DNA of 64,000 nt, taken from NCBI GenBank assembly GCA_036003045.1, contig DASYSS010000059.1, positions 1-64,000 on the forward strand. The letters run 5' to 3'. Shown here in pieces: positions 1 to 60,510 of this stretch. Positions within the stretch are counted from its first letter, which is position 1. Every line of letters begins with the position of its first letter. The notes under the pieces are model-generated. The model searched no databases and was not told the origin of the DNA. It saw nothing but the letters and a program-made list of their open reading frames with translations. Position numbers and translations under genes: made by a program. This DNA comes from Gemmatimonadaceae bacterium. GTDB lineage: Bacteria; Gemmatimonadota; Gemmatimonadetes; Gemmatimonadales; Gemmatimonadaceae.

Positions 1-285
1 ATGATGCCCGCTCCGGATCGCAACGCGTTCGTCGCGCGTACGGTGGATTGGATCAATCGCACGCTCGTTCCCGAGGGTGTCACGGTAGATGCCGACACAC
101 CGCTGTTCGCGAATGGGCTGATCAACTCCATTCGCATTCTCGAGATCATCGCCTGGACCGAGCGCGCAACCGGCCGGCGCATTCCCGACGCGGCAATCCG
201 GATGGACAATTTCCGCACGGTGCGACGCATCGCCGACGTCTTCTGCGCGACGGAAGACACGGGAGGTTCCGATGTGGCGGCATAG
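1..285 (+). CDS. stand-alone acyl/aminoacyl carrier protein
   Basis: A 94-residue carrier protein, about the usual ACP length. The expected phosphopantetheine attachment serine is S43 in GLINSIRILEI, at the start of helix 2; the usual Asp-Ser-Leu is here Asn-Ser-Ile, as is often seen in non-fatty-acid carrier proteins. Two Met codons (1 and 4) open the frame at the very edge of the window, so a start further upstream cannot be excluded. Its stop overlaps the next gene, an amino acid:carrier-protein ligase, by 14 nt. That pairing suggests this protein receives an activated amino acid as a thioester rather than a fatty acid. No phosphopantetheinyl transferase is visible in the window. The carrier fold is clear; the bound substrate is inferred. 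Confidence 0.85.
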   Translation: MMPAPDRNAFVARTVDWINRTLVPEGVTVDADTPLFANGLINSIRILEIIAWTERATGRRIPDAAIRMDNFRTVRRIADVFCATEDTGGSDVAA

Positions 286-1195
286 CGAGGTGCTTCGCAT
301 TCTGAGGTCGCGCGGCGATGTCTGGGACGTCGCCCCCGGCATCACCGGCTTTCGCGGCGCCACGGCAAACCTGTTCGCCGCGCTCGAGCGTCACATCGGC
401 GACGTGTGCCTTGGAGAAACACCCGACGAATGGCGCGTTCCGCCCGCCATCGGCTTCGCCACACTGGCGCGCGCCGACTACTTCGCGTCGCTGCCGCAGT
501 GGCTGACGCTGGTTTCTCATTTGAGCGGCCGAGAGGATGTGCTGCGGCGGGTGGCGGAGGATCCGGAGCCGGCATTGGCCGTCCGTGAAGCGGCAACACC
601 GCCGATCGTCGCGCTCAATCCCGCCGTCTGCTATCACGTGTACGCCGGACTCGCCGGACAAACGTTGGATGCTCCTCGATTGGTGACGGCCCAAGCCGGC
701 TGCTGGCGCCACGAAGCGACGCGGCATCGATCGCTCGAGCGCGGATGGGCGTTCACGATGCGCGAAGTCGTTTTCGTCGGCGACGACGTGCGTGCAACGG
801 AGTTTCTGCGGCGCGCAACGGAGCGGGCGACGTCGTTGGCCCACTCGCTTGGCCTCGACACGACGATCGCCCCGGCAACCGACCCGTTCTTCGCGCCGAC
901 GGCGCGCGCAAAACAAGTCCTGCAGCGCATCAAGGAGCTCAAGCACGAGCTGCTGCTCCCGATCGGCGACGATCAAACGACCGCCGCCGCGTCGTTCAAC
1001 CTGCACGACACGTTCTTCGGCGAGGCGTTCCGGATTCGATTGTCGGACGGGCGCCCCGCCACCACCGCGTGCATGGCGTTCGGCATCGAACGGTGGACGC
1101 TCGCATTCCTCGCGGCGCACGGCCCCGACGCGCGCCATTGGCCCCCCCGCGCGCTCCAGCCGCTCGGCGAGACAGTGGAGGTTAGCCATGTCTGA
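272..1195 (+). CDS. amino acid--[acyl-carrier-protein] ligase (SerRS-like class II synthetase)
   Basis: A 307-residue catalytic core of a class II aminoacyl-tRNA synthetase without any tRNA-binding arm. This matches the amino acid:carrier-protein ligases known from Bradyrhizobium, which adenylate a small amino acid (Gly or Ala) and pass it to carrier-protein phosphopantetheine. The three expected zinc ligands can be seen: C120 in NPAVCYH, E165 in FTMREV and C267 in TTACMAFG. Motif 2 is around CWRHE (144-148) and motif 3 is GIER (271-274). A strong Shine-Dalgarno GGGAGG lies 5 nt before the ATG. The gene overlaps the carrier-protein gene upstream and the desaturase-like gene downstream, so these three are almost certainly translated together. 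The family is well supported; which amino acid is activated cannot be read from the sequence. Confidence 0.9.
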   Translation: MWRHSEVLRILRSRGDVWDVAPGITGFRGATANLFAALERHIGDVCLGETPDEWRVPPAIGFATLARADYFASLPQWLTLVSHLSGREDVLRRVAEDPEPALAVREAATPPIVALNPAVCYHVYAGLAGQTLDAPRLVTAQAGCWRHEATRHRSLERGWAFTMREVVFVGDDVRATEFLRRATERATSLAHSLGLDTTIAPATDPFFAPTARAKQVLQRIKELKHELLLPIGDDQTTAAASFNLHDTFFGEAFRIRLSDGRPATTACMAFGIERWTLAFLAAHGPDARHWPPRALQPLGETVEVSHV

Positions 1196-1946
1196 AACGA
1201 TCGTCACGACCGGCGCGCTCTACGTTCGTCACGCGCGCGCGGCAGACCGCGGCGCTTGGTCCGTCGAGCGCGACGTCGACTGGAAGGCGATCGATGCGCG
1301 AGTCGCGCTCTCGCAGCCCGACATTCTCGCCAAGCTCCGCGACGCCGCGCTCATCGAGTCGTTTCATCCGGTGAACTTGTCGCGCCTCATCCGGCTCACC
1401 TGGGACGACATCGACGCCGGCGTCGTGTTCTCGCTCGAGATGTTCGAGGGGTTCAAGCACTTTCACGCGCTGCGCACGTACCTCGACGCCGTCGGTTACG
1501 GGCCGGCCATTACGAACGACGATCTTCGCGCGATCCGCGAACGCGCCGAGCGCGGCGATCTCGATCCGGCCGACGCCATGACGCCGCTCGTCGAGTTCAT
1601 GCTCAGCGAGCACCTCGCCGCGTACTTCTTCCGCCGGCTGAGCGAGCAAGCGCGCGAACCGCAGCTGGCCGCGATGCTCGAGCTGATCGCGGCCGACGAG
1701 GTTCGTCACGCGCAGTCCGCGTCCGACCTGATCGCCAAGCGGCTCGCCGTCAATCCCGAGCTCAAACCCGGCGTGCTCCGCGCGGCGACCCGCTTCAAGC
1801 ACTACGGCACCGAGGCGGTGGGCGGGGGTGACGTTCCCGTCGCCATGGAAGGCGACGAGATCGCGATCCGGACGTTCGCTGGGCGCATTGAACGGCTCTG
1901 CGGCACGCGCCTCGTCGATCACCTGAAAACCGAGATGGAGCTGTAA
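1188..1946 (+). CDS. acyl-ACP desaturase-like ferritin-fold diiron protein
   Basis: A 252-residue helical protein resembling the type 2 (soluble) acyl-ACP desaturases. The best match is 138-190, where a helix with E141/H142 is followed by IAADEVRHA with E171 and H174, the second ExxH of the diiron site. The earlier helix (81-100) carries E84, E87, H91 and H93 in a segment that aligns with the EENRHG helix of plant desaturases. The glutamate one expects three residues before H91 is glycine, so the first half-site is atypical. The protein is shorter than plant desaturases (about 360). Such enzymes use O2 on substrates tethered to ACP, which fits the neighbouring carrier protein and ligase; an aminoacyl thioester is the inferred substrate. 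The start is set by GGAGG before the ATG at 1188, which overlaps the previous stop. Confidence 0.75.
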   Translation: MSETIVTTGALYVRHARAADRGAWSVERDVDWKAIDARVALSQPDILAKLRDAALIESFHPVNLSRLIRLTWDDIDAGVVFSLEMFEGFKHFHALRTYLDAVGYGPAITNDDLRAIRERAERGDLDPADAMTPLVEFMLSEHLAAYFFRRLSEQAREPQLAAMLELIAADEVRHAQSASDLIAKRLAVNPELKPGVLRAATRFKHYGTEAVGGGDVPVAMEGDEIAIRTFAGRIERLCGTRLVDHLKTEMEL

Positions 1947-1948
1947 CC

Positions 1949-2497
1949 ATGGAAATCAACGAACGCGAGCTCACGCTTCTCAACTTCTATCGTGCCTCCG
2001 AGCTGCAGGGCGGATTGATCCTCGGCCGGCTCGTCGAGCACGTGCGCGACCCCGATCTCATCCTCCGACTCACCGAACATAGCTCGGAGGAAATCATGCA
2101 CGCGCAGCTGTGGACAAAGACCATCATTGCGGTGGGCGGACGTCCTCGGCCAACATCGGATACGTATCAGTCGCGTTATGCCGCGGCGATCGGCACGCCG
2201 AGCTCGCTCGTCGAGGTGCTCGCGCTGACCCAGGTCTTCGAGCGTGGCGTGTACCGGCACTTCGTCCGCCACCTGCGTCGGCCGGGGACGCATCCGCTCG
2301 TGCAGGCGACGCTGCGCCGCATGCTCGACGACGAGCGCGGGCACCTCTCGTGGGTACAAGAATGGCTCGCCGGACAGACCGGCGCTCGCCGCCTGGCGAT
2401 TCCGTCGCTCATGCGGCGATACACGGCTGTCGACGCGCGGATTCACGCGCAGCTGTTGCGCGACTACGAATGGGACGACCTCGCATGCGCGTCCTGA
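1949..2497 (+). CDS. ferritin-like diiron protein
   Basis: A 182-residue four-helix protein with a complete ferritin-type diiron ligand pattern: E18, then E48xxH51 (SSEEIMHAQ), then E98 (QVFERGVY), then E129xxH132 (DDERGHLSW). It begins two bases after the stop of the preceding desaturase-like gene and overlaps the following gene by 13 nt. The two diiron proteins are therefore made side by side, either as two successive oxidation steps or as an oxygenase and an accessory subunit. A GGAG lies 8 nt before the ATG. The fold and metal site are direct observations; an oxidase or oxygenase role is an inference from family and context. A non-catalytic iron-storage role is unlikely in this operon. 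Confidence 0.75.
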   Translation: MEINERELTLLNFYRASELQGGLILGRLVEHVRDPDLILRLTEHSSEEIMHAQLWTKTIIAVGGRPRPTSDTYQSRYAAAIGTPSSLVEVLALTQVFERGVYRHFVRHLRRPGTHPLVQATLRRMLDDERGHLSWVQEWLAGQTGARRLAIPSLMRRYTAVDARIHAQLLRDYEWDDLACAS

Positions 2498-3681
2498 CGG
2501 AGCCGCGCGAGACAGGATCCGCCGCAACACCGACGCGTGCGGCGGGCCTCGTGCGTCGCGTCTCGCTCCGCGGCGCGATCGACGATCGCCTGTACTTCGC
2601 GCAGGTCCGCGAGGACCCGCTCCTCGAGATCGAGGCGCTCGCCCCGACGGCGGACGATTCACTCGTCGTCGTGGGATCCGGCGGATGCACGGCGCTGTCG
2701 CTGCTCGCCGCGGGCACTGGTCACGTCGCGTCGGTGGATCTCAATCGGACGCAGAATCACCTCGCCGAGCTCAAGCTCGCGGCGGTGACTTCGCTGCCGC
2801 ACGACGCACTGCTCGGCATGCTCGGTGGCGCGAAGTGGACCCGTGCTGCTCGAGCCGCCAACTACGCCGAGCTCCGCGGCCGCATCTCGCCCGCGGCGCG
2901 CGCGTATTGGGACGCCCGTCCATCGATGATCGAGCGCGGTGTGCTCGACGCCGGCGTCACCGAACGGTTCGTGCGCGCCGTCGTGGTCGCGCTCCAGCTG
3001 TTCGTCCACCCGGGCTCGCGAGTCGAGCGGCTGTTCGCGTGTGGCTCGATCGACGGGCAGCGAGCGTTGTTCGAGCAAGAGTGGGACACGTTCCGGTGGC
3101 GTGCGTTCTTCAGGGTCCTGCTGAATCGCGTCGTCTTTCGCCGCGCATACGATTCGGCGTTCTTCGCGCATCTCGAGCAGCCCAGCTTCGCGGCGCACTT
3201 TCGCGCGCGCGCCGAGCACACGCTGACTCGGCTCAGCGTACGCGACAACTACTTCCTGCACCAGATGCTCACCGGCGAATATCCGGCGCATGAACCGCAC
3301 GGCGTTCCGCCCTATCTGCGCGAGGACGGCAGCCGCGCTGTCTCGAACGCGAGCGACGCGCTGACGCTCGTCGACGGCTCCTTTACCGACTACCTCAGGA
3401 CGGTGCCCGACGGGAGTGTCTCGGGCTTCGCCCTGTCGAACATCTGCGAGTGGCTCACGCCCGCGGCGGTCGACGAGCTATTCGGCGAAGTCGTGCGCAC
3501 GGCTCGCCCACAGGCGCGCCTCTGCTTCCGCAACTTCGTGGGATGGACGGAAGTCCCGGAGCGTTGGCGTGAATTCGTCGTCGAGGACCGGGCGCTCGGT
3601 GAGCGACTCATCGCGCGAGATCGCGCGGTCGTTCAGCGGCGCATCGCCGTTTGTCGGGTGAACGCGGGAGCGGACCGATGA
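2485..3681 (+). CDS. DUF3419 / BtaA-like SAM 3-amino-3-carboxypropyl transferase
   Basis: A 398-residue member of the DUF3419 family. Its best-known member, BtaA, moves the 3-amino-3-carboxypropyl group of S-adenosylmethionine onto diacylglycerol in betaine-lipid synthesis. A nucleotide-binding segment is visible at 60-90: VVVGSGGC (62-68) followed by the acidic D85 in SVDLN. The C-terminal half contains DNYFLHQMLTGEY, a conserved block of the family. No BtaB-type N-methyltransferase lies nearby, so betaine-lipid synthesis is not supported. In this operon the acceptor could be the carrier-protein-bound amino acid or a later intermediate. There is no Shine-Dalgarno; the ATG at 2485 sits inside the end of the previous gene and is probably translationally coupled. 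The family is confident, the acceptor unknown. Confidence 0.8.
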   Translation: MRVLTEPRETGSAATPTRAAGLVRRVSLRGAIDDRLYFAQVREDPLLEIEALAPTADDSLVVVGSGGCTALSLLAAGTGHVASVDLNRTQNHLAELKLAAVTSLPHDALLGMLGGAKWTRAARAANYAELRGRISPAARAYWDARPSMIERGVLDAGVTERFVRAVVVALQLFVHPGSRVERLFACGSIDGQRALFEQEWDTFRWRAFFRVLLNRVVFRRAYDSAFFAHLEQPSFAAHFRARAEHTLTRLSVRDNYFLHQMLTGEYPAHEPHGVPPYLREDGSRAVSNASDALTLVDGSFTDYLRTVPDGSVSGFALSNICEWLTPAAVDELFGEVVRTARPQARLCFRNFVGWTEVPERWREFVVEDRALGERLIARDRAVVQRRIAVCRVNAGADR

Positions 3682-4817
3682 CCGCCACGATCGTTCGACC
3701 GGACGTTCTTGTGCGCGACGCGCGCGGCGGCGACAACGCCTCACTCGTCGCGCTGGCCAAGGCGTGCCCCATGGAGGGCGACATCGCTCTCGCCGTCTCG
3801 CGCGAGCCGGACTTCTTTGCGCTCAACCGCCTCGAGGGATCGCGGTGGCGGGTGGGCGTCGCCGAGTCGGACGCGCTGCCTCGCAGCGGCGTCGCGGGGT
3901 GCGTCATGGCCGCGGCGCGGACGAGCTATCTCCGAGGACAGCCTCGCGAGACGCTCTACGCCGGCGACCTCAAAGTTCATCCGTCGGTGCGTGGCGCCGG
4001 CATCGCCGACTCGCTCACCGAGTGGGCGGTCGGCGTACTCGGCGATCTGGGCGGCGACGACGCCCCCGTTCTCGTCACTGTGCTCTCCGGTAATCGTGCG
4101 ATGGAGCGGCGTGCATTCGGCCGCGGCGGCGCTCCGGCGTTCACACGTTTCTCGACGATTCGCGCCTTCTCGATTCCCCTGCTCTGGCCGCGCTCCCAGC
4201 GCGACATCGGAGCCATTCGCGTCTCACCAGCGACGAGCTCCGATCTCGACGAGATGGCGGCCCTCTGGAAGCGAGTCGCGCCGGGGAGGCAGTTCGCGCC
4301 CGCCTTCGACGCCGATTCGTTGAGCGCGTGGATCGCCGACGCACCGGGACTCGGCATCCACGACTATCGCGTCGCGCGAACGCGCGACGGTCGGATCGTC
4401 GGATTTCTCGCGTGGTGGGATCAGACCGTTTTCAAGCAATCGCATGTGCTGCGGTATTCGCCGCGCCTCGCCGCCGCGCGTGTCGCGATCAACGGGATGG
4501 CGACCCTCATGAGTGGGATTCGGCTGCCGAGCGTCGGCGAGCCGTTGAGCTACCGAACCGCGCTGCACGTCTGTGTGCCGTCCGGTCGGCCCGACGTGCT
4601 TCGCGCCCTGCTTCGCGCGAGTTGTGCCGAGTTGCACGGCCAGCGATATGCCTTCGCGACGATCGGGCTCGACGTGCGCGACCCGCTCTGCGCGGCGATG
4701 CCCGGCTTCGCGGCGCAGCCAACCGACGTGAACGCGTACGTATTCACACCCTCGGGTCCGTACGCCGGCCCATCGCTCGACGATCGTCCTCTTCACTACG
4801 AGATCGCGCTCGTATGA
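3678..4817 (+). CDS. tandem GNAT-family N-acyltransferase
   Basis: A 379-residue protein that looks like two GNAT-like halves. The N-terminal half has the acetyl-CoA-binding signature around DLKVHPSVRGAGIADSL (97-113). The second half, from about residue 185, repeats a weaker GNAT-like pattern (TSSDLDEMAALWKRV, later RIVGFLAWW). It starts by ATGA overlap with the previous gene, with GGGAG 7 nt upstream, and ends by ATGA overlap with the radical SAM gene. Acyl donors for GNATs can be acyl-CoA or acyl-ACP, and aminoacyl-transferring double-GNAT proteins exist. Offloading or condensing the carrier-bound aminoacyl group is therefore a reasonable guess, but only a guess. Simple N-acetylation of the product is the alternative. 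Confidence 0.75.
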   Translation: MTATIVRPDVLVRDARGGDNASLVALAKACPMEGDIALAVSREPDFFALNRLEGSRWRVGVAESDALPRSGVAGCVMAAARTSYLRGQPRETLYAGDLKVHPSVRGAGIADSLTEWAVGVLGDLGGDDAPVLVTVLSGNRAMERRAFGRGGAPAFTRFSTIRAFSIPLLWPRSQRDIGAIRVSPATSSDLDEMAALWKRVAPGRQFAPAFDADSLSAWIADAPGLGIHDYRVARTRDGRIVGFLAWWDQTVFKQSHVLRYSPRLAAARVAINGMATLMSGIRLPSVGEPLSYRTALHVCVPSGRPDVLRALLRASCAELHGQRYAFATIGLDVRDPLCAAMPGFAAQPTDVNAYVFTPSGPYAGPSLDDRPLHYEIALV

Positions 4818-5830
4818 CGACTCGGCGAAAGAAGCTGGGACGCGTCGGATATTGGTCGAGGCTTTACGGCACGCTGCGACGGGCGAATCGCTCGTATTCG
4901 CGCGAGACCGACATGGAGCGCGCGCCATTCCCGAGGGTAATCCAGCTTCAGACGATCAACGCCTGCCAGGCGGCGTGCAAGATGTGCCCCTATCCCGCGT
5001 TCAAGGGCGTGTTTGCGCGCGGGCGCATGGACGACGCGCTCTTCGACAAGATCACCGACGAGATCGCACTGCATCCTGAAGTCGAAACGTTCGTCCCGAT
5101 GCTCCAGAACGAACCGTTTCTCGACAAGCACATCTTCGAGAAGATCGCCCGCTTCAAGCGTCGCACCGCCGGCCGCATCAGCGTCGAGCTGGTGACGAAC
5201 GGCGCGCTTCTCACCGACGAGCACATTTCGCGTTTGCGCGACGCCGAGCTCGACGTCCTCGACATCAGTCTCGATGCGCTGAGCCGGGACGTGTATGAGA
5301 AGATCCGCATCGGTCTCGATTACGACACGGTGCTGGCCGGCGTCGAGCGTGTGATCGCCGCGGATCTTCCCGGAACGAGCGTCTTCGTGCGACTCGTACG
5401 CCAGCGCGACAACGCCCAGGAAGTGCGTGCCTTCGCCGGCCGTTGGCGACGACGCGGCGTTCCGGTCTTCATATATGATGTCACCAACCGGACTGGCGCG
5501 CTTCCGCAGTTCGACCAGTCGATTCGCGCGCCCCGGCCGTCGGCGGCTGGGTCCCTGGTCGACGGCACGAAGCGGTGGGCCTCGCGGGCCTGGCTCGGCC
5601 ACTGTCCCATTCCGTTCGCGTCCGCGAGCATCCTGCACAACGGCGACGTGTTGATGTGCACCCACGACTGGGCGCGCGAGGAAGTCATCGGCAACGTGCG
5701 CGACCTCGGCATCGCCGAGCTGTGGAACGGCGATCGCATGCGCGAGATTCGGCGGCTCATCAGCGAGCGACGCTACGAGGCGATCCCCGCGTGCCGCCAC
5801 TGCTCCCTCTGGCGCGATGGCTGGTTCTGA
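4814..5830 (+). CDS. radical SAM/SPASM enzyme
   Basis: A 338-residue radical SAM protein. The [4Fe-4S] site that binds and cleaves SAM is C51xxxC55xxC58 (CQAACKMC), preceded by a beta strand VIQLQTINA. A C-terminal SPASM-type auxiliary cluster domain is indicated by C264 (GHCPIPF), C282 (VLMCTHDW), C327 and C330 (ACRHCSLW), with the typical ILHNGDV and IGNVRD segments. SPASM proteins commonly modify peptides but also small molecules and carrier-bound substrates. No precursor peptide gene is evident in the operon, so modification of the carrier-bound or released amino acid product is the better guess. It overlaps the upstream gene by ATGA and the downstream exporter gene by 14 nt. Confidence 0.85.
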   Translation: MTTRRKKLGRVGYWSRLYGTLRRANRSYSRETDMERAPFPRVIQLQTINACQAACKMCPYPAFKGVFARGRMDDALFDKITDEIALHPEVETFVPMLQNEPFLDKHIFEKIARFKRRTAGRISVELVTNGALLTDEHISRLRDAELDVLDISLDALSRDVYEKIRIGLDYDTVLAGVERVIAADLPGTSVFVRLVRQRDNAQEVRAFAGRWRRRGVPVFIYDVTNRTGALPQFDQSIRAPRPSAAGSLVDGTKRWASRAWLGHCPIPFASASILHNGDVLMCTHDWAREEVIGNVRDLGIAELWNGDRMREIRRLISERRYEAIPACRHCSLWRDGWF

Positions 5831-8108
5831 AGCGGCGGCGCGAGGCATCGTACGACGCAGGAGGACGATCCTCGCGGCGTGGATCGTCCTGTGCGCCGCG
5901 CTCGTCCCCGCGGCGCGAAGCATCGAGTCCGTGTTGAGCGTCGCGGCGCGTATCGACGGCAGCGAGTCCGCGGCGGTGGACGATCAGTTGGCACGGCGTT
6001 TCCGTTCGCCGTTCGCCCATTCGGTCGTACTCGTCGCCGCCGGTCTGCCGTCGCCGACGACGCGCGACGGTGAGTCAGCGCTCGGGAGGCTCGCGACGGC
6101 GGTCAAGTCCGAGCCGGGCGTGACGGGCGTCGTCTCGTACTTGGATGGTCGCGAATCTCTCATGGTCGCCGACTCCGGCCAGAACGCGACTTTCCTGATG
6201 GTCGGCCTCGATGGTCCGCGCCCGGACACGCGGCTCGCGTTGCTGCGCGACGACACGCGCCGCATCGAGCGCGAGATGCACGATGACTACCCGCACCTCG
6301 AGTTGCGTTGGACCGGCGAGACGGCTCTGAACGCCGACCTGCGTCGTGCCAGCGCCGCGGATGCGCAAAGCGCCGAGCTGCGAGCGCTGCCGCTGACGCT
6401 CCTTCTGCTGTTGGTGGCGTTCGGCGCGCTCGCCGCCGCGCTCCTGCCCATCGCCGGAGGCATGCTGGCGATTGGCGTCTCGCTCGGCTTGGCCAGCCTC
6501 GTCGCGCATGTATGGTCGCTGTCCATCCTCGCGCAGAACGTCGTGACGATGATCGGCCTCGGTCTGGGAATCGACTACTCGCTGTTGATGGTCGGTCGAT
6601 TCCGCGATGAGCTGCGGTCGGGCCGGCGAGCCGAAGTCGCCGCTGTAGAAGCGTTGCGCCACGCCGGACCGACGATCGCGCTGTCTGGACTCGCCGTGGC
6701 GATCGGGTTCGGCGCGCTCGTGACCGCGCCGGTGAACGAGCTTCGCTCCGTCGCGATCGGCGGTCTGCTCGTGACCGGCGTGTCGATTCTGATCTCGACC
6801 ACACTCCTTCCCGGGCTGCTCGCGGAGGTGGGCGAGCGGGTCGATCTCGGACGCGTAAACCTCGTGCGGCGGGCGCGGCCGCGCTGGAACCATTGGGCCG
6901 ACGCGGTGACCCGCCATCCGCTGCGCGTTCTCGCGATCTGCGGCCTGCCGGTCTGCGCGCTCGCGTGGCAGTCCCGAAAGCTGAACATCGATCTTCCGCG
7001 AGGCGACTGGCTCCCGAAGCAAATGGAGTCCGCCGTCGCGCTTCGCTCGCTGCAGACGATGGGACGAGGCTCCGTCGTCAACACGATCCGTTTGACGCTG
7101 GAATTTCCGCGTGGCATGTCGGCGTTGGACGACAGTGGCTGGGCGGCGACGACTCGCGTCGCGCGATGGCTGGTCGCCGATTCGGCGATTCAACGCGTGC
7201 GGTCGTTGCCCGGATTCGTCGCGCCGATGGGCACGTTCATCCCACGCGACACACTCGTGTCGCTCCTCCCGGCCTCCGTGCGACGGTCATTCGTCAGCGA
7301 GGACGGGGGGATGGCTCTCCTCGAGGTCGTTCCGCGGGAGAGTGCGACGCCACGCGACCTTTCGGCGCTCGTCCATCGGCTTCGATCGGCGGACACGGTG
7401 CTCGCGACGAGTCGCGGACGGGCGACGCTGTTGGTCGGCGGGCTTCCGGCGTTCAACTATGACTACGAGCGCGCGGTCGCCGGACGATTGGTGCAGGTCA
7501 TCGCGCTGGTCGTCGGCGCGACGTTCATCGTGCTGGCCGTCGGATTCAGATCGGTGCTCGTTCCGCTCAAGGCGATCGTGCTCAATCTGCTCGCGGTCGC
7601 GGCGGCATTCGGCGCGGTGAAGCTGGTGTTTCAGGACGGCGTCGGCGGCGCGGCCCTCGGGCTCGACGGAGCACTCGACGCGATTTTTCCCGCGGTGCCG
7701 GTGCTGGTCTTCTGCATCGTGTTCGGATTGAGCATGGACTACGAGGTGTTCCTCGTCGCGCGCATCCGCGAGGCGCGCGCCGGCGGCTTGAAGGAACGCG
7801 AGGCGATCGCGCATGGGCTGTCGCAGACGAGCGGCCTGATCACGAGCGCGGCCGCCATCATGATAGTCGTCTTCGGCGCGTTCGTGCTCGGCGACTTCCT
7901 TTTGATCAAGATGCTCGGGTTCGCGCTGGCCGTCGCGGTGTTGTTGGACGCGACCGTCATGCGCCTCGCCGTAAGCCCTGCATTGCTCACGTTGGCCGGC
8001 CGGTTGAACTGGTGGCCGGGAGACTTCGCGCGACGAGCGCTCGGCGGTCCTGGGAGTATCGAGGTAGGACGAAATCGCCTCGCCGACTTCACGCATCGCG
8101 GCGACTAG
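5817..8108 (+). CDS. MMPL/RND-family exporter
   Basis: A 763-residue membrane protein with the two-fold MMPL (RND superfamily) layout. There is one N-terminal transmembrane helix (about 16-33), an exported loop (about 40-185), a five-to-six-helix block (about 190-345), a second helix with exported loop, and a second helical block (about 560-740). SMDYEVFLVARIRE in the second half and GIDYSLLMVGRFRDE in the first are the conserved D-Y motifs of transmembrane helix 4 in each repeat, expected to carry protons. MMPL proteins export lipids and hydrophobic metabolites. As the last gene of the overlapping operon, it most likely exports the pathway product. The start overlaps the previous gene by 14 nt. 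Confidence 0.88.
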   Translation: MAGSEAAARGIVRRRRTILAAWIVLCAALVPAARSIESVLSVAARIDGSESAAVDDQLARRFRSPFAHSVVLVAAGLPSPTTRDGESALGRLATAVKSEPGVTGVVSYLDGRESLMVADSGQNATFLMVGLDGPRPDTRLALLRDDTRRIEREMHDDYPHLELRWTGETALNADLRRASAADAQSAELRALPLTLLLLLVAFGALAAALLPIAGGMLAIGVSLGLASLVAHVWSLSILAQNVVTMIGLGLGIDYSLLMVGRFRDELRSGRRAEVAAVEALRHAGPTIALSGLAVAIGFGALVTAPVNELRSVAIGGLLVTGVSILISTTLLPGLLAEVGERVDLGRVNLVRRARPRWNHWADAVTRHPLRVLAICGLPVCALAWQSRKLNIDLPRGDWLPKQMESAVALRSLQTMGRGSVVNTIRLTLEFPRGMSALDDSGWAATTRVARWLVADSAIQRVRSLPGFVAPMGTFIPRDTLVSLLPASVRRSFVSEDGGMALLEVVPRESATPRDLSALVHRLRSADTVLATSRGRATLLVGGLPAFNYDYERAVAGRLVQVIALVVGATFIVLAVGFRSVLVPLKAIVLNLLAVAAAFGAVKLVFQDGVGGAALGLDGALDAIFPAVPVLVFCIVFGLSMDYEVFLVARIREARAGGLKEREAIAHGLSQTSGLITSAAAIMIVVFGAFVLGDFLLIKMLGFALAVAVLLDATVMRLAVSPALLTLAGRLNWWPGDFARRALGGPGSIEVGRNRLADFTHRGD

Positions 8109-8123: not shown

Positions 8124-9242
8124 ATGCAGACCGGCGGCGAATCAATCGAGCAAGCGGTCTCCACCACCCCAGGTCCCCTGGTCCCGCCGATCGCCGGCGC
8201 CACTTCAGTCCCGGGCCGACCGCGACGCCGCTTCGAGGAGCTCGATGTGTTGCGCGGCGTCGCCGCGCTGGCGGTCGTGGTCTTTCACTACTCCGGGCAC
8301 GCCACGCGCTATTTCACCGGCTTCCCCTTCCATTTCAAGCTCGGTGAGCACGGCGTGCAACTGTTCTTCGGCATTTCCGGCTTCGTGATTTTCATGACGC
8401 TGGAGAACACGAAAAAGCTCCGCGATTTCGTCGTCTCGCGCTTCAGCCGGCTGTATCCGGCGTATTGGATCACGCTCGTGATCCTGGCCGTCGCGACTCT
8501 CCTAGCCCACGAAAAAGTTTGGCTGACCGGGCTCGCGGTCAACGTGACCATGTTGCAGAGCTTCGTCGGCGTCGGCGATTTCGATCTCGTGTTTTGGACG
8601 CTCGCGGTCGAGTTGGTGTTCTACGTCATCATGGGAACGCTGTTCGCTCTCGGCTTGACGCGCCGCATCGTGCCGATCGCGCTCGCGTGGCTCGCCCTCG
8701 GCGCCGCCGTCGGGTTGGCGGGTCCACAGGTTCCGGCGTGGATTTCCGTCTACACGACGCGGTTCCTCATCCTTCCGCACGCGCCGCTTTTCATCATCGG
8801 CATGATGTGGTTCCGCATCCATACCGACGGCGTCTCACGCGTACCGGTGCTGGTCGTCGTCGCCGCGGTCGCGACCGTCTTCGTGGCGAGCGGCATCGCC
8901 GCCGGCCTCATCGCGGCTGGCGTGTGCGTGATCGTTGGACTCGCGGTGCTTGGCGCTTTGAGCCTGGCCGTCGGGCGGGTCACGCTCTGGCTGGGCGCGA
9001 TCTCGTACCCACTCTACCTGCTGCACCGCAACCTCGGTTACACGCTCCTCTTCGCACTCGATCGGCTAGGAGTGCCGAGCGTTTTCAACGTCCTCGTCGC
9101 GATCGCGTTCGCGCTCTCCCTTGCCACCGCCGTAAGCGTGTTTGTCGAACGCCCCGCGATGGCGGCGATTCGCAAACGCTACAAGAACTGGTCGGCCCGT
9201 GCGCACCCCGAGACCGTGGAAGTACAAGCCGTGGCTGGTTGA
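8124..9242 (+). CDS. acyltransferase family 3 (OafA/YrhL-type) membrane protein
   Basis: A 372-residue integral membrane O-acyltransferase. It has the typical N-terminal signature FEELDVLRGVAALAVVVFHY (conserved R and H of the family), HGVQLFFGISGFVIF, and about ten predicted membrane helices ending in VFVERPAM. It starts 15 nt after the stop of the MMPL exporter on the same strand. It could therefore be transcribed with the biosynthetic operon and acylate an exported product, but it lacks the start/stop overlaps that bind the eight upstream genes, so membership is uncertain. GTG 8118 and TTG 8115 are alternative starts. A terminator follows at 9279-9313. Confidence 0.85.
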   Translation: MQTGGESIEQAVSTTPGPLVPPIAGATSVPGRPRRRFEELDVLRGVAALAVVVFHYSGHATRYFTGFPFHFKLGEHGVQLFFGISGFVIFMTLENTKKLRDFVVSRFSRLYPAYWITLVILAVATLLAHEKVWLTGLAVNVTMLQSFVGVGDFDLVFWTLAVELVFYVIMGTLFALGLTRRIVPIALAWLALGAAVGLAGPQVPAWISVYTTRFLILPHAPLFIIGMMWFRIHTDGVSRVPVLVVVAAVATVFVASGIAAGLIAAGVCVIVGLAVLGALSLAVGRVTLWLGAISYPLYLLHRNLGYTLLFALDRLGVPSVFNVLVAIAFALSLATAVSVFVERPAMAAIRKRYKNWSARAHPETVEVQAVAG

Positions 9243-50522: not shown

Positions 50523-53500
50523 TCAGTTGTGGATCTGGATGCTGCCTCCGCCAAGCGTCGTGGTCGGGTCAGCGGTGAGGTCAGTCGAGGTGATTTGGTT
50601 GTCGTAGATGACCGCCAACGTGGTCTTGTTCCAAATCCTGATGCGGAAGGTGTCGGGGCTGCCTTTCGATTTCAGGTCTCCGTCGATCGCGGTGAGCATG
50701 AAGAAGTAGTCGCCACTGCCGTTGATCGTGCCCGAGCCTTTGTACTGCGCCTTCGTGCCGGAGATGACCAGCCATTCGTAGGACGTCGACTGAAAGTTGA
50801 GTCCGGCGGCGTGGAAGTCGAACTCGGTGTCGCCGTCCGGTGTCGTCTGTCCCTTCTTGTACTTGGACACGAATCCGAACGTAGCCTTCCCGGTCAGGGT
50901 CGGATCGGCCGGGTACGCCCCACTTGGCGAGTTGATCCAGCCGCCGCCGGTCACGAACCCTGCGGTCGGATCATAGACGACGACGTACTGGTACATCGCG
51001 TCGCTCGTGAGGTTGCCCGAGTCCTTGACGTGCGCGACGATCGTGTAGACGCCCGTCGCCGTGTACGTGTGCGACCCGCTGAAGTTGCGTGACGTGCCCG
51101 ATCCTGGCGCGACGCTGATGGCGCTCGAGCTGCCGTCGCCCCAGTCGATCGTGCCGGTGTGCGAGTCGATCACCGGACTGTCGCCGAGGTCGACGTCGGT
51201 GAACGTACCGTTGGCCGTCACCGGGGAACCGAGCGCCGTCGGCAGCAACGGTCCGGCGAACGCCGTGATCGTCGGCGGATCGTTCACCGGCGTCACATAG
51301 ATCGTGAACGTCTTTGTGGTTGCGTCGACGCCGCCGTTTGCCGTGCCGCCGTTGTCCTGCAACTTCACCGTCACGGTGGAGTTGCCGTTGGCGTTCGGGG
51401 CGGAGGTGAACGTGAGCGTGCCGCTCGCGTCGATCGACGGCTGAACGCTGAACAGTGCGCTATTTGTGCTCGTCACTGTGACCGTGACTGCCTGACTGCT
51501 CTCGTTCGACGGGCCCGGGCTCGGATTCGTCAGCGCGTTCGGCACGGACTGCGCACCGGCATCCTCGAGCACGGTCTGATTTCCAATGAGATTGAATGTC
51601 GGCGCATCGTTCACCGGAGTGATGGTGATGGTGAACGTCTGCGAAGGACTCGTATCCACCCCGAGGTTGGCCGTTCCGCCGTCGTCGTGAAGTTGTACCG
51701 TCACCGTCGCCGACCCGTTCGCGTTCGCGGCCGACGTGTAGGTCAGCTTGCCGCTCGGGTCGATCGCCGGCTGCGAGGAGAAGAGCCCGTTGTTGTCGTT
51801 GGTGACGATGAAGTTGAGTTTCTGAGAGGATTCATCGGGCGGGCCGGCGCTGATCGCGGTAGCCCAACTGACATTCTGGGCCCCGGCGTCTTCGAGAACC
51901 GTCTGATTTGGTCCCTTCGTGAAGCTCGGCGCGTCATTCACGGCCGTCACGGTAATGAGGAACGTCTTCGTCGTCTGATCGACGCCGCCGTTGGCCGTGC
52001 CGCCGTTGTCCTGAACCTTGACGGTCACCGTCGTCGTGCCGTTCGCATTCGCCGCGGGCGTATATGTCAACGTACCGCTGGCATCCACCGCTGGCTGGCT
52101 GCTGAAGAGTGCGTTGTTGTCGTTGGTCATCGTGAGCGTGAGAGTCTGCGACAGCTGCTCGTCCGGCGGGCCAGCGCTCTTGTTCGTGACCGCGTTCGGA
52201 ACCGACTGCTGCCCCGCATCCTCGAGTATGCTCTGGTTGCCGATCAGATCGAACGTCGGCGCATCGTTCACGGCAGTGATCGTGATCGTGAACATCTGCG
52301 ACGGGCTTGTGTCCACGCCGCCGTTGGCCGTGCCGCCGTCGTCGTGGAGCTGCACCGTCACCGTCGCCGATCCGTTAGCGTTCGGCGCCGACGTGTAGCT
52401 CAGCTTTCCGCTCGCGTCGATAGTCGGCTGCGACGAGAAGAGCGCGTTGTTGTCGTTGGTGACGATGAAGTTGAGTGCCTGGCCGGATTCATCGGGCGGA
52501 CCGGCGCTGATCAACGTCGCCCAGCCGCTCACACTCTGAGCGCCCGCGTCCTCCAACGCCGTCTGATTCGCGCCCTTCGTGAAGCTCGGGGCGTCGTTCA
52601 CCGGCGTGACGTTGATGTAGAGCTTCTTCGTCGTGTGATCGATGCCATTGTTCGCAGTGCCGCCGTTGTCCATCACGGTCACCGTGACTGTCGCCTTGCC
52701 GTTCGCATTGGGGTTGGTCGTGAACGTGAGAGCGCCAGTGACCAAATCGATCGACGGCTGAACGAGGAACAGCGCGTTGTTGTCGTTCGTTACGTTACTC
52801 GAAAGCGTCTGACTGCTCTCGTTCGCCGGACCCGGGCTCGGATTCGTGAGAGCGTTCGGTACCGACTGCGCCCCGGCGTCTTCGAGAACCGTGGTCGAGG
52901 CGATCAGGGCGAAGGTCGGGGCGTCGTTGACCGGCGTGACGTTGATGACGAACGTCTGCGACGGGCTCGCGTCGACGCCGCCGTTCGCCGTTCCGCCGTC
53001 GTCCTTGGCCACCACTGTGATCGTCGCACTGCCATTCGCGTCCGGCGCGCTCGTGAACGTGAGCGTCCCGTTCGATGCGATCGACGGCGCCGACGAGAAC
53101 AGTCCGGGGTTGGTGTTTCCGGTGATCTGGAACGACACGGTCTGCGAGCTCTCGTTCGCGGGCCCCGCGTTGATCGCCGTCGCCCAGCCGGAGACGGATT
53201 GCGGCCCAGCGTCCTCGAGAGCCGTCTGATCGGCGCCCTTCGTGAAGCTCGGCGGATCGTTCACCGGGTTAATGGTGATCGTAAACATCTGCGGCGCGCT
53301 CGTATCGACGCCGGTGTTCGCGGTGCCGCCGTTGTCGGAGAGGGTGAGCGTGATCGTCGCCGTTCCGTTCGCATTGGCGGCGGGCGTGTAGGTCAGCGTG
53401 CCGTTCGCCGCGACGCTCGGCTGCACCGAGAAGAGCGCCGAGTTGGTGTTGTTCGTGATGTTGAACGTCAGCGTCTGACCCGATTCGTCCGGCGGGCCGG

Positions 53501-56036
53501 CGCTGATCGCCGTCGCCCAGCCAGTTACCGTCTGCGCACCCGCGTCCTCGTTCACCGTCGGATCGGTGCCCTTGGTGAAGCTCGGCGCGTCGTTTACCGC
53601 CGTGACGTTGATGACGAACGTCTGCTCCGCGCTCTTGTCAACGCCGTTGTTCGCGGTGCCGCCATTGTCGCTGAGCTGAATCTTGATCGTCGCGGATCCG
53701 TTCGCGTTGGCGGCGGGCGTATAGGTGAGAACGCCGGTGGCACTCACCGTCGGTCCGGCCGAGAAGAGACCGGGGTTCGAGTTGTTCGTGATGGAGAAGG
53801 TCAGCGTCTGTGCCGATTCGTCCGGCGGCCCCGCGCTGAGCGCCGTCGCCCATCCGGAGACGGTCTGTGCTCCGGCATCCTCGAGCACCGTTTGATCGGC
53901 GCCTTTCGTGAAGCTCGGGGCGTCGTTTACGGCGGTGACGTTGATGACGAACGTCTGTTCCAAGCTTGCGTCGACGCCGCCATTCGCGGTGCCACCGTTG
54001 TCCGTGAGCTTGAGCTTGATCGTCGCTGATCCGTTGGCGTCGGCCGCGGGCGTGTAGGTCAGCGTGCCATTCGCGGCGACCGACGGGGGGGTTGAGAAGA
54101 GCCCCGGATTCGAATTGTCGGTAATCGAGAACGTCAGGGTTTGGCCGGACTCGTCCGGTGGCCCTGCGCTGATTGCCGTGGCCCAGTTAGTCACAGACTG
54201 TGCGCCCGCATCTTCGAGCACCGTTTGATCGGCGCCTTTGGTGAAGCTCGGCGCGTCGTTGACAGCGTTGACTGTGAGGTTGACCGTCACGTCGCTGCTT
54301 ACTGCGTTCGACGGATCTTTCGCGTGGTACTTGAAGCTGTCGGGACCGTTGTAGTTCGCGTTCGGCGTGTAGGTGAACGAGCCGTCTGCGTTCAGCGTCA
54401 ACGTCCCATGCGTCGGACCGGAGCCGGTCACCAGAACAGTCGTCAAACCGTTCGGCGTTTCGGCGTCGGTGTCGTTCGAGAGGACACCAGGAGCCGTGAC
54501 GTTCAGCGCGTTGTCTTCGTTGGTGCTGTAGGTGTCGCCCTGCGCCGTCGGTGGAGTATTCGCGGCGGTAACGACGAGCGTCCCTGACGTCGTCAGATCG
54601 CCGTTGCCCTGACAATCGTTACCGCGCGCCCCCTGGACGGTGAAGGGATAGGTACCAGCCGGTGTCGCCACCGTCGTGGAGATCGTCAGCGTGCTGCTAT
54701 AACTCGAATTGCCGGTGTGCGGCGAATTCGTAAACGAGGCGCTCGATCCTGCTGGCAAGCTGCTGGTCACCGACAGCGTCACCGTGCACTGGTTGGTGTT
54801 CCCGTTGATCGTCACGTTCACCGTGTACTGTGCGTTTACCCCCGCAACGACCGTAACACTCGTGGGCGCCGCGATCGTAACGAGCTGAAGGTTTCCATCC
54901 GTGAAGGTCGTTTGCGCTACGAGCCCGGACGGATTCCCTACCGCGGTCGCAGTGAACGTGACGCCGAAGTCGCGCTGCTGTACGACAAACTCGTGGCTCG
55001 CGAGATTGCCATTCGCGTCCGCTACCGCGCTCACGGTTCGATCCGGATTCGACCACTGGGGATCCTCATGCACCGTGATCGTCACGGTGTCGCCGGCCGT
55101 CCATCCCGTTCCGGAGAACAGCACCGTATCACCCGGGAGATAGTCCGGCTTGTCCGTCGTCAACGTCGGACCCGACGCTCCTCCATCGCTGGTGGCGTCG
55201 AGCGAGGCGCCCGAAGATGGCGCCTTGTTCAACGCCGCCGGACCTGACCTCCCTCCACTCGACCGACCGTCGGAATTCGAGTACAGCACGAGCACACTCT
55301 GCCCATTGGACTCCGCGGCCGTCGCCCCACCAATCGCGCCAACCTCCGTCCGCGCCGCGGCGCGAGCGCCGATGTGAAGCCCGTACGACGCCATGTTCGT
55401 GAATCGGCGCGCCGCGCCGCCCGCGAGCAGCGCATCGCCTCCCCCGTTCTTGCTCGAGATGGGCGTCACGTCGCCGAACGTCGTCAGATCCGCATCGGCG
55501 GACACATCGGCCAGAGAGACCGAACGAACCCACGAGTAGCGACTGGAGGACGCAGTCGACAGGTCGAGCAGCGCCACCATGCCGACGAGGCTCGTCGCGC
55601 GGGTGTGTCCCGCCGCTGCCCACGTCGCGAGGTTCTGGATGATCGCGTCCTTGTCCGCCCGATTCGCGTTCCCCTGGTCCGGTGCGCCCGAGTACACCGC
55701 GACGCGGCCGTTGATGGCCAGATGGAGGCGCGACGCCGCGGCTCTCAGCAGCGCGTACGGCTGCTTGTCGTCGTCGTCGGCCAACGACGGCACGATGAAG
55801 ACCGCATAGTGGTTCAAGTCGATCGCCTTGAGGTCGAGCGTTCCGTTCGACCCGTCGTAGGCGCGATCCACGCCGTCGGGAAACTTCGACGCAAGCGCGG
55901 TGACGATTCGGTCGCATCCGGTCGCGTCGATCCCGACCGGGCAGTAGACGAGGGCTTTCTGGGCCTGGGCTGCCGGCGCTGCAATGGACAGCGCCAGCGC
56001 CGCCGCAAACGCGGCGGCCGCGAAGTTGGTGCGCAT
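50523..56036 (-). CDS. giant secreted repeat protein with nine 110-residue repeats
   Basis: A 1837-residue exported protein (signal peptide ending AAQAQ). Residues about 25-250 form an alpha/beta domain (ALVYCPVGIDATGCDRIV, VAVYSGAPDQGN) shared with the paralogue at 56731. A beta region follows (PDYLPGDTVLFSGTGW), then a cadherin-like domain (about 500-590). Nine repeats of about 110 residues occupy about 591-1580; each starts NDAP(S/T)F and contains EDAGAQ, a (T/S)YTPxANANG-like segment and DNGGTAN. A PKD-like domain (DWGDGSSSAI) and a conserved tail with VTGGGWINSP close it. There is no sortase site or Por-type tail. It may be an adhesin or surface-layer protein. It is downstream of a small lipoprotein gene (32 bp gap). 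Confidence 0.85.
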   Translation of the reverse strand: MRTNFAAAAFAAALALSIAAPAAQAQKALVYCPVGIDATGCDRIVTALASKFPDGVDRAYDGSNGTLDLKAIDLNHYAVFIVPSLADDDDKQPYALLRAAASRLHLAINGRVAVYSGAPDQGNANRADKDAIIQNLATWAAAGHTRATSLVGMVALLDLSTASSSRYSWVRSVSLADVSADADLTTFGDVTPISSKNGGGDALLAGGAARRFTNMASYGLHIGARAAARTEVGAIGGATAAESNGQSVLVLYSNSDGRSSGGRSGPAALNKAPSSGASLDATSDGGASGPTLTTDKPDYLPGDTVLFSGTGWTAGDTVTITVHEDPQWSNPDRTVSAVADANGNLASHEFVVQQRDFGVTFTATAVGNPSGLVAQTTFTDGNLQLVTIAAPTSVTVVAGVNAQYTVNVTINGNTNQCTVTLSVTSSLPAGSSASFTNSPHTGNSSYSSTLTISTTVATPAGTYPFTVQGARGNDCQGNGDLTTSGTLVVTAANTPPTAQGDTYSTNEDNALNVTAPGVLSNDTDAETPNGLTTVLVTGSGPTHGTLTLNADGSFTYTPNANYNGPDSFKYHAKDPSNAVSSDVTVNLTVNAVNDAPSFTKGADQTVLEDAGAQSVTNWATAISAGPPDESGQTLTFSITDNSNPGLFSTPPSVAANGTLTYTPAADANGSATIKLKLTDNGGTANGGVDASLEQTFVINVTAVNDAPSFTKGADQTVLEDAGAQTVSGWATALSAGPPDESAQTLTFSITNNSNPGLFSAGPTVSATGVLTYTPAANANGSATIKIQLSDNGGTANNGVDKSAEQTFVINVTAVNDAPSFTKGTDPTVNEDAGAQTVTGWATAISAGPPDESGQTLTFNITNNTNSALFSVQPSVAANGTLTYTPAANANGTATITLTLSDNGGTANTGVDTSAPQMFTITINPVNDPPSFTKGADQTALEDAGPQSVSGWATAINAGPANESSQTVSFQITGNTNPGLFSSAPSIASNGTLTFTSAPDANGSATITVVAKDDGGTANGGVDASPSQTFVINVTPVNDAPTFALIASTTVLEDAGAQSVPNALTNPSPGPANESSQTLSSNVTNDNNALFLVQPSIDLVTGALTFTTNPNANGKATVTVTVMDNGGTANNGIDHTTKKLYINVTPVNDAPSFTKGANQTALEDAGAQSVSGWATLISAGPPDESGQALNFIVTNDNNALFSSQPTIDASGKLSYTSAPNANGSATVTVQLHDDGGTANGGVDTSPSQMFTITITAVNDAPTFDLIGNQSILEDAGQQSVPNAVTNKSAGPPDEQLSQTLTLTMTNDNNALFSSQPAVDASGTLTYTPAANANGTTTVTVKVQDNGGTANGGVDQTTKTFLITVTAVNDAPSFTKGPNQTVLEDAGAQNVSWATAISAGPPDESSQKLNFIVTNDNNGLFSSQPAIDPSGKLTYTSAANANGSATVTVQLHDDGGTANLGVDTSPSQTFTITITPVNDAPTFNLIGNQTVLEDAGAQSVPNALTNPSPGPSNESSQAVTVTVTSTNSALFSVQPSIDASGTLTFTSAPNANGNSTVTVKLQDNGGTANGGVDATTKTFTIYVTPVNDPPTITAFAGPLLPTALGSPVTANGTFTDVDLGDSPVIDSHTGTIDWGDGSSSAISVAPGSGTSRNFSGSHTYTATGVYTIVAHVKDSGNLTSDAMYQYVVVYDPTAGFVTGGGWINSPSGAYPADPTLTGKATFGFVSKYKKGQTTPDGDTEFDFHAAGLNFQSTSYEWLVISGTKAQYKGSGTINGSGDYFFMLTAIDGDLKSKGSPDTFRIRIWNKTTLAVIYDNQITSTDLTADPTTTLGGGSIQIHN
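51288..54264 (-). repeat. coding tandem repeats, nine units of about 330 bp
   Basis: Nine in-frame units form two subtypes. A-type units read APSFTKG...WATAISAGPPDES; B-type units read APTF...SVPNALTNPSPGP. Their order is A-A-A-A-B-A-B-A-B. The paralogue has A-A-A-B, so growth seems to have gone by whole A-B pairs (about 660 bp). Confidence 0.8.
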
Positions 56037-59700: not shown

Positions 59701-60510
59701 ACCCGACGCAGCGCCTCCCGCCGAAAGGTCGAGCGACGCGCCGCCTGAGTTTCGGCGATCTGCGTTCGAGTACAGTACAAGCACGCCCTGGCCGCCGGCG
59801 GCGGTCAGACCGCCGATCGCGCCCACGTCAGTACGGGCGGCCGCGCGGCCGCCGACATGGAGACCATATGAAGCCATGTTGGCGAAACGATGCGTCGATC
59901 CCGACGGCAGCACGTCTCCATTCCGGCTCGAGATCGGCGTCACGTCGCCGAAGCTCTGCAGCTCCGCATCGGCCGAGACGTCGGCGAGCGACACAGAGCG
60001 GACCCACGAGTAGCGATCCGCCGGGTTCGTGGAAAGATCGAGCAGCGCCACCATGCCCACGAGACTCGTCCCGCGCGTGTGTCCCTCTGCGGCCCAGGTC
60101 GCGAGATTCTGAATGAGCGCGTCCTTATCGGCGCGATTCAGATTCCCCTGGTCCGGAGCGCCGGAGTAGACGGCGACACGACCATTGATCGCCAGATGGA
60201 GCCGCGCCGCCACCGCGCGCAGCGCGGCGTACGGCTGCTTGTCGCCATCGTCGGCGAGCGACGGCACGACGAACACGGAATAGTGATCGAGGTCGATGGA
60301 CTTCAGATCCAACGTTCCATTCGACCCGTCGTATCCGCGATCGACGCCGCCGGCGAACTTCGGCTGAAGTGCCGAGACGATCCGGTCGCACCCGGTGGCA
60401 TCGACGCCGACGGGGCAATAGACGAGGGCTTTCTGGCCGTGGAGCGGGCGCGCGAACACAGGCAGCGCCAGCCCCGCCGCGAGTGCGGCGGCCGCGAGAT
60501 GGTTGCGCAT
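56731..60510 (-). CDS. giant secreted repeat protein with four 110-residue repeats
   Basis: A 1259-residue paralogue of the protein at 50523. The N-terminal domain (1-270) and C-terminal tail (from about 1020: PKD-like DWGDGTTSSL, then VTGGGWINTP and GGGSIRIHNN) are clearly alike. It has four 110-residue repeats (about 578-1020) after a cadherin-like domain (about 480-575). A different middle segment (about 370-480, with CGTTTPATFLVNHEYCGQTT) replaces the corresponding part of the other protein. The ATG at 60510 has GAGAG 4 nt upstream. It is 33 bp downstream of a small lipoprotein gene. The role is probably cell-surface binding, inferred only from repeats and export. Confidence 0.85.
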   Translation of the reverse strand: MRNHLAAAALAAGLALPVFARPLHGQKALVYCPVGVDATGCDRIVSALQPKFAGGVDRGYDGSNGTLDLKSIDLDHYSVFVVPSLADDGDKQPYAALRAVAARLHLAINGRVAVYSGAPDQGNLNRADKDALIQNLATWAAEGHTRGTSLVGMVALLDLSTNPADRYSWVRSVSLADVSADAELQSFGDVTPISSRNGDVLPSGSTHRFANMASYGLHVGGRAAARTDVGAIGGLTAAGGQGVLVLYSNADRRNSGGASLDLSAGGAASGPTLTTDRPDYLPGDTVLFSGAAWAPSDTVTITVHEDPQWSNPDRTVVAVVDANGNLRSHDFVVQPRDFGVTFTATAVGNPSGLVAQVTFTDGTIATVINTAVLNTSSAAGQCGTTTPATFLVNHEYCGQTTVQDITGTGGTTLFMRWVRPGGGFGSIACSTSVPVLAGNTYGAKCIPDFPSTSTADWTFQVSAQSTFNPVLASVSVHVVSNTAPVANNDSYGTLEDAGLTVAAPGILGNDTDAENNPLTAVLVSGPAHGTLTLSANGAFTYTPVANYSGADSFTYKANDGTANSGAAATVNITVNAVNDAPSFTKGSDQAVLEDAGAQSISNWATAISAGPADEAGQTLTFVVTGNSNPGLFSAAPVVNANGALTYTPAANANGSATITLKLTDNGGTANGGVDASGEQTFAINVTAVNDAPSFTKGSDQTVFENAAAQTVSSWATAISAGPSDESGQTLTFVVSNGNNALFSAQPSIDATGKLTFTPAPDAFGTATVTVQLHDNGGTANGGVDASAAQTFTITITPINHAPSFTKGANQVVLEDAGAQSVNGWATGISAGPPNESAQALDFVVTNDNNALFSSQPAVDATGKLTYAPAANANGSATVTIKLHDNGGTVNGGVDTSPVQTFTIAVTPVNDAPMFTLVASNTSAEDAGAQTVNGALTNASAGPNEGGQKLTLTVTNNNNSLFTVQPSIDLATGRLTYTSAPNANGTATVTVKLQDDGGTANGGVDQTTKTFVITVTPVDDAPVITSFYGPVQPIALGASISVTGAFSDVDLGDTPPDSHVGTIDWGDGTTSSLSIAAGSGVSRSFSGSHTYAVAGVYTITAHIRDAGGLAGDATCKYPVVVFDSNGGFVTGGGWINTPTGKAAFGLVSKYTKGQATPGGDTEFQGPGFNFKSTSCDWLVTSGGGAKAMYQGSGTINGTGNYGFMVTVIDGSLAAKHSDMLRIRIWDKSSGAVVYDNQPGAADAADPTNATGGGSIRIHNN
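57456..58775 (-). repeat. coding tandem repeats, four units of about 330 bp
   Basis: Four in-frame units, A-A-A-B in the naming used for the units at 51288-54264. The fourth begins APMFTLVASN and contains NGALTNASAGP, the B pattern. Confidence 0.8.

Follow-up and report, generated by a model that had tools for sequence, protein, structure and literature searches.

What do eight tightly packed genes at the very beginning of a contig from a Gemmatimonadaceae bacterium make? The window analyzed here is a stretch of 64,000 nucleotides, starting at base 1 of contig DASYSS010000059.1 (C59; assembly GCA_036003045.1). Its first 8,108 bases encode, all on the plus strand, a carrier protein (acyl carrier protein 1, ACP1), an amino acid:[carrier protein] ligase-like protein (LIG), two putative diiron proteins (DES and FER), a DUF3419 (BtaA family) transferase dependent on S-adenosylmethionine (SAM), a tandem GNAT protein, a radical SAM/SPASM protein and an MMPL/RND-type exporter. 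The best overall explanation, to which we give a probability of about 0.6, is that these genes belong to a specialised-metabolite cluster of the Gemmatimonadota based on an aminoacyl-ACP. That they form a dedicated biosynthetic cluster starting from an aminoacyl-ACP is, as a more limited statement, highly probable. The observations behind this reading are the gene content and order on both sides of a contig break, the conserved catalytic residues and the common history of the core genes.

Organisation of the locus

An initial annotation of the window had described eight open reading frames with seven junctions, six of them overlaps of 4-14 nt and one a 2-nt gap. All were re-found at the same positions (in order, -14, -8, +2, -13, -4, -4 and -14 nt), and a codon-usage gene finder chose the same eight genes. 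Elsewhere in the window, overlaps were observed in 2 of the 22 other same-strand neighbour pairs. The family calls made initially for the carrier, the ligase with its Cys-Glu-Cys zinc ligands, and the DUF3419, radical SAM/SPASM and MMPL proteins were confirmed by profile or sequence matches, with Radical_SAM and SPASM both matched; PP-binding (ACP1), DUF3419 and MMPL scored above the Pfam cut-offs. The other calls, two diiron proteins and a tandem GNAT, scored below these cut-offs; they are retained here on the modelled folds of DES and GNAT and on the complete ligand pattern of FER.

The ACP1 start codon lies at the start of the contig, which cuts the operon, and therefore eight genes is a lower limit. 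In the relatives, a standalone thioester reductase (TR) gene precedes the carrier gene and a KAS III-like gene lies before TR; some loci also have a phosphopantetheinyl transferase (PPTase) gene ahead of KAS. When the window's own genome was searched with the TR of the relatives, an N-terminal TR part was found running off the end of another contig (C75), on which KAS and PPTase genes come next, in an order that matches the intact relatives. This fragment carries the NAD motif TGATGLLG and YxxxK, and about 70-80 TR residues are lost between C75 and C59, the expected gap being about 0.2-0.3 kb. From this synteny we infer that the two contigs are adjacent and that the window genes are the right-hand half of a larger cluster, with PPTase, the KAS III-like enzyme and TR as its left part. 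The eight-gene operon of the initial annotation is thus correct for the genes in the window and incomplete as a description of the operon.

Conservation and distribution of the cluster

We compared 19 distinct loci, taken mostly from metagenome-assembled genomes; several of them are truncated by contig ends. Eleven loci (type A: the window with C75, L012, L021, L022, L023, L024, L025, L026, L027, L028 and L048) have, as far as the contigs reach, the order KAS-TR-ACP-LIG-DES-(FER)-DUF3419-GNAT-(rSAM)-MMPL, where rSAM is the radical SAM gene. Contig ends interrupt two of these loci, that of the window and L021 (genome G049), which stops after DES. At L012 (genome G024), the cluster is intact with ten genes (L012:6680-16415), the radical SAM gene not being among them. 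A PPTase gene was called ahead of KAS at 5 of the 11, including the window's own on C75. The overlap between the ACP and ligase genes is exactly 14 nt at most type A loci, the window included; at the exceptions, L024 and L025, the ligase start call is doubtful or the gene is damaged.

Type B consists of seven loci (L029, L030, L031, L032, L034/L020, L035 and L036), in which the ligase is fused to ACP1, DES is present and a methyltransferase is found instead of DUF3419. Where the contig covers it, FER of type B is fused to a fatty-acid-type second ACP, and neither GNAT nor MMPL was found at these loci. In type C, represented by the acidobacterial locus L033, a methyltransferase is accompanied by a second free ACP and an acyl-CoA dehydrogenase. 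Wherever a type A or type B contig covers them, KAS and TR are present, and the acidobacterial locus has them too. All type A and type B loci with a named source are, by their record titles, from Gemmatimonadota; the exception is L030, from an unidentified bacterium.

The initial annotation had proposed that co-occurrence of the ligase, DUF3419 and ferritin-like genes should be looked for in other genomes. They are indeed neighbours across type A, although FER is missing from L025 and DUF3419 is exchanged in types B and C. The radical SAM gene, which had been listed among the pathway genes, occurs at only 3 of the 10 type A loci that reach past GNAT (the window, L022 and L023); it is optional and accessory.

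In a sample of 395 genomes of the phylum, DES was strongly matched in 15, and no strong match was obtained in the other 380; within the genus, DES and the cluster were found in none of the four other members sampled. In all nine type A genomes of this sample whose contig continues, DUF3419 lies within 0.8 kb of DES, whereas DUF3419 proteins above the cut-off occur in 43 of the 395 genomes overall. Among 347 acidobacterial genomes, the only strong match was at the known locus, the rest being weak (1e-15 or worse), and a search of viral contigs with the ligase gave no match. The distribution is patchy, as in specialised-metabolite clusters. Gene order is kept across several families with a mean identity of the core proteins of 35-66%, and the pairwise identities of KAS, TR, LIG, DES and FER are correlated (rho 0.71-0.87), none of 500 label shuffles giving values as high; therefore, the core genes travelled together. 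The carrier-tethered amino acid pathway with an exporter that had been suggested at first is in this way upheld as a conserved biosynthetic operon around an aminoacyl carrier, whose core neighbours are kept and co-diverge.

Carrier protein and ligase

ACP1 (1..285) matches PP-binding with 25.2 bits, and its attachment residue, Ser43 in GLINSIRIL, is kept across the aligned loci. A weak match to the ornithine-lipid ACP model was also observed. The ligase (272..1195) is a protein of 307 aa whose residues 52-299 align with residues 83-331 of Bradyrhizobium Bll0957 (PDB 3mey, 8e-37). Like the amino acid:[carrier protein] ligases represented by Bll0957, it has a class II core resembling seryl-tRNA synthetase (SerRS), no tRNA-binding domain and an adjoining carrier, and C120, E148 and C267 are the counterparts of the zinc ligands of Bll0957. 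Unlike those ligases, it is located among KAS, TR and diiron genes, and in the sister clusters it is fused to its own ACP.

The DUF3419 protein, the tandem GNAT and the exporter

The DUF3419 protein (2485..3681) scores 210 bits against PF11899, far above the cut-off of 28.2, and has a SAM motif, GSGGC, at residue 64. In these respects it is like BtaA, which transfers an aminocarboxypropyl group in betaine-lipid synthesis. No credible match to solved structures was obtained with the single sequence or with a profile. Conserved residues are shared between this protein and DUF3419 proteins from elsewhere in the phylum, yet it groups apart from them; in the tree, the cluster proteins lie on one side, apart from the long-branch row L063, so that strict monophyly is not claimed. 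Unlike BtaA, the cluster proteins are on a separate branch, no BtaB-like gene was seen beside them, and they are encoded within a carrier-protein cluster. DUF3419 is an exchangeable part, the place of which is taken by a methyltransferase in the sister and acidobacterial clusters. Other DUF3419 genes of the phylum occur in two conserved-looking operons, one at L056, L058, L061, L062 and L064 and the other at L057, L059 and L060. At L058, the one member of the first group that was checked, DUF3419 is found with a PPDK_N/PEP-utiliser protein and a UbiA prenyltransferase; at L057, likewise the one checked in the second, it is found with a CTP transferase, a CDP-alcohol phosphotransferase and HMG-CoA reductase.

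GNAT accompanies DUF3419 at all type A loci that reach that far; MMPL comes next or, where the radical SAM gene intervenes, one gene later. The model of the GNAT protein (3678..4817; pLDDT, the predicted local distance difference test, 88.5) matches N-myristoyltransferase (NMT) with Z 25.4 over 314 residues, from model residue 1 to the last, 379. An NMT-like architecture is shared by tandem GNATs in general, and the bacterial MAB_4324 matches just as well (Z 24.7 over 311 residues); the fold alone is therefore no proof of a fatty acyl donor. The two-domain architecture, with the CoA-binding loop in the N-terminal domain, and the conserved C-terminus, -ALV in 10 of 10 orthologues, are like those of eukaryotic NMT, MAB_4324 and another bacterial tandem GNAT, NpuN. 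The catalytic base of NMT is its C-terminal carboxylate. However, identity to the solved NMTs is only 10-13%, and no membership of the NMT family was found among Pfam matches up to E 1 or in a phmmer search of the PDB. NpuN takes acetyl- to oleoyl-CoA (PMC13060382). The radical SAM/SPASM protein (4814..5830) has C51xxxC55xxC58 and four auxiliary cysteines (264, 282, 327 and 330). The exporter (5817..8108) matches PF03176 in two stretches (223 bits) and closes the conserved unit.

One alternative explanation that these three type A genes suggest is a membrane-lipid operon, in which DUF3419, GNAT and MMPL would make and place a structural lipid of the betaine or amino-acid type, with the aminoacyl-ACP giving the head group. 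The BtaA family membership, the weak ornithine-lipid ACP match, the fact that MMPL pumps carry lipids, and the presence of CDP-alcohol phosphotransferase, CTP transferase and HMG-CoA reductase genes beside other DUF3419 genes of the phylum are consistent with this. However, absence from the four other genus members sampled and from 380 of 395 phylum genomes would be odd for a structural lipid. Moreover, the DUF3419 proteins of the cluster differ from those found elsewhere in the phylum, and the sister clusters, which are without DUF3419, have no GNAT or MMPL found beside them. We therefore consider the lipid operon unlikely.

Putative chain joining, oxidation and release

The KAS encoded on C75 and in the relatives belongs to the sequence family of KAS III/FabH, PqsC and CerJ and retains the catalytic Cys and His. 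Its active-site residues are C134, H248 and H279; the third position of the triad is His, not Asn, in every aligned homologue, giving Cys-His-His in contrast to the Cys-His-Asn of FabH.

The model of DES (1188..1946; pLDDT 89.7) is a ferritin-fold bundle of the acyl-ACP desaturase/R2lox/VlmB kind. It matches castor acyl-ACP desaturase with Z 19.2 over 239 residues, the R2-like ligand-binding oxidase R2lox with Z 18.5 over 220, VlmB with Z 16.9 over 226, and a Kitasatospora aldehyde-deformylating protein with Z 16.6. Among its conserved residues (E57, E87, H91, E141, E171 and H174), E57, E141, E171 and H174 are invariant in the aligned family, and the second ligand pair is present as DEVRH. However, whereas the desaturases and R2lox have two EExxH/DExxH pairs, the first pair of DES is E-[GS]-x-[KR]-H in all aligned homologues, in place of the E-E-x-x-H of its relatives, so that the Glu is replaced with Gly or Ser; in the alignment with R2lox, FEEAKH corresponds to [FY]E[GS]xxH. 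E87, located one position before the replaced ligand Glu, is invariant along with H91. Judged from the alignments, one canonical iron ligand is gone from DES, with possibly a displaced Glu. Short, distant DES homologues (186 aa, 32-35% identity) were found alone, away from any cluster, in genomes of genus g7 (L009/L018:8780-9340 and L010/L017:2659-3219).

FER (1949..2497) is a COQ7/rubrerythrin-like protein with the complete ligand set E, ExxH, E, ExxH; E18, E48/H51, E98 and E129/H132 are invariant in 12 aligned sequences. A sequence comparison of FER with the PDB returned only armadillo-repeat and designed proteins, which we took as chance matches. In the acidobacterial locus (L033:3907-5267), the free ACP is accompanied by an acyl-CoA dehydrogenase related to prolyl-carrier-protein dehydrogenases, which points to oxidation of a carrier-bound aminoacyl group.

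Two other readings of the ferritin-fold proteins were considered. In the first, TR makes an aldehyde and FER or DES deformylates it, as in the pair of acyl-ACP reductase and aldehyde-deformylating oxygenase. The standalone TR is always found alongside ferritin-fold oxygenases, and DES aligns with the Kitasatospora protein; however, DES resembles desaturases at least as well, FER resembles COQ7/rubrerythrin, and the ligase and DUF3419 would be left unexplained. This reading is quite improbable. In the second, which we regard as very improbable, DES has the role of the azoxy synthase VlmB, its substrate being a hydrazine derived from a carrier-bound amino acid. Known azoxy clusters are defined by VlmA, VlmH and VlmO genes, and KAS III genes and seryl-tRNA synthetases are found near some VlmA genes (PMC9379638). 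The ferritin-fold VlmB of the valanimycin and azodyrecin clusters resembles DES, and in valanimycin an enzyme of the aminoacyl-tRNA synthetase kind activates the amino acid; however, that chemistry is tRNA-based and the present one carrier-based, VlmB matches DES no better than desaturases or R2lox do, and among the cluster genes scanned with Pfam neither VlmA (LPG_synthase_C) nor a flavin monooxygenase of the VlmH/R kind nor a membrane protein like VlmO was found. Finally, although tight spacing alone is weak evidence, packing of unrelated genes by chance or genome compaction, the accident that the initial annotation had allowed for should homologues not be neighbours elsewhere, is refuted for the core by the shared order, sequence identity and correlated divergence described above, and could hold for the radical SAM gene and an acyltransferase gene downstream (8124-9242).

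Proposed pathway

For the aminoacyl-ACP cluster, we propose six steps, with confidence decreasing from the first to the last. PPTase would prime ACP1, and the SerRS-like ligase with ATP would activate an amino acid and load it; loading is the most secure step, because the ligase comes with a carrier of its own and several loci add a PPTase. DES and FER may then oxidise the carrier-bound aminoacyl group by desaturation, hydroxylation or N-oxidation. Third, the Cys-His-His KAS III-like enzyme would link the aminoacyl unit with an acyl or malonyl partner, and TR would set the chain free in aldehyde or alcohol form; joining and reductive release are both implied by the presence of KAS and TR wherever contigs cover them. 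Fourth, the DUF3419 protein would alkylate the intermediate from SAM, with 3-amino-3-carboxypropyl if it is BtaA-like; in the sister clusters, methylation probably occurs at the equivalent step. Fifth, the tandem GNAT would N-acylate an amine much as NMT does, the group transferred probably being a fatty acyl, and sixth, the MMPL pump would export the product. Type B loci gave neither GNAT nor MMPL, so the two probably take over what the DUF3419 protein makes, which favours N-acylation and export of that product.

Oxidation on the carrier with reductive release is a probable part of this scheme. A fatty N-acylated product exported by MMPL is a tentative proposal; that the steps follow in exactly the order given is rather doubtful. 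The small, exported, amino-acid-derived metabolite suggested at first is kept as far as assembly on the carrier and export are concerned. As for its being a plain small product, the NMT-like GNAT and the MMPL-type pump make an acylated one likelier. At its most specific, the scheme would define a new class of bacterial lipo-amino acids, in which a KAS III with a Cys-His-His triad would condense an aminoacyl-ACP, a ferritin-fold oxygenase with a shifted ligand would oxidise it, a BtaA-type enzyme taken over from membrane-lipid synthesis would add an aminocarboxypropyl group, and a bacterial NMT analogue would use its C-terminal carboxylate for N-acylation before export by MMPL; this is speculative and, taken as a whole, doubtful.

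Several points weigh against this interpretation. The activities and the product are predicted from the genes, and the join between C75 and C59 from synteny, not from sequence. The ligase scores 191.1 bits against NF005479, below the equivalog cut-off of 357, so it shares the superfamily and architecture and is not the named equivalog; the identity of the amino acid cannot be read from its sequence. None of the type A clusters was found to have a second ACP. The type A cluster genes that were scanned gave no BtaB-like N-methyltransferase partner, although one could lie elsewhere. On the modelled fold alone, a short-chain acyl donor for GNAT is equally possible. In L025 (L025:9183-9993, genome G236), the ligase is without residues about 174-212 and has a frame change, and no FER was found in the cluster or in the rest of this genome, estimated to be 85% complete; these losses reflect either decay or an assembly fault.

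As the initial annotation had supposed, no described pathway with this gene set was found in the open-access papers searched, although a description elsewhere is possible. In kind, the cluster represents carrier-tethered amino-acid biosynthesis, and it is a new variant of it, the combination and the active-site changes being new as far as could be searched.

Neighbouring genes

The acyltransferase-3 gene (8124-9242) lies on the same strand and starts 15 nt past the MMPL stop; because of this closeness it may be cotranscribed with the operon. No homologue was found at the same place in the type A relatives examined. A Polyketide_cyc2 (SRPBCC) gene, which could be an extra cyclase or a lipid-binding part, recurs near type B and type C clusters (L029:838-1272, L033:6491-6931 and others). 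Farther along the window, two adjoining genes on the minus strand (50523-56036 and 56731-60510) encode giant proteins of 1837 and 1259 aa, which consist mostly of bacterial Ig/cadherin-like repeats.

Conclusions

The locus represents an orphan cluster from uncultured members of a soil phylum in which few natural products have been characterised, and since it contains no modular nonribosomal peptide synthetase or polyketide synthase, standard signatures may miss it. Three of its proteins, the Cys-His-His KAS, the displaced-ligand oxygenase and the NMT-like GNAT, depart from textbook active sites in ways that can be tested. Furthermore, the comparison of parallel clusters, in some of which a methyltransferase takes the place of the BtaA-type transferase, offers a direct test of DUF3419 function outside betaine lipids.

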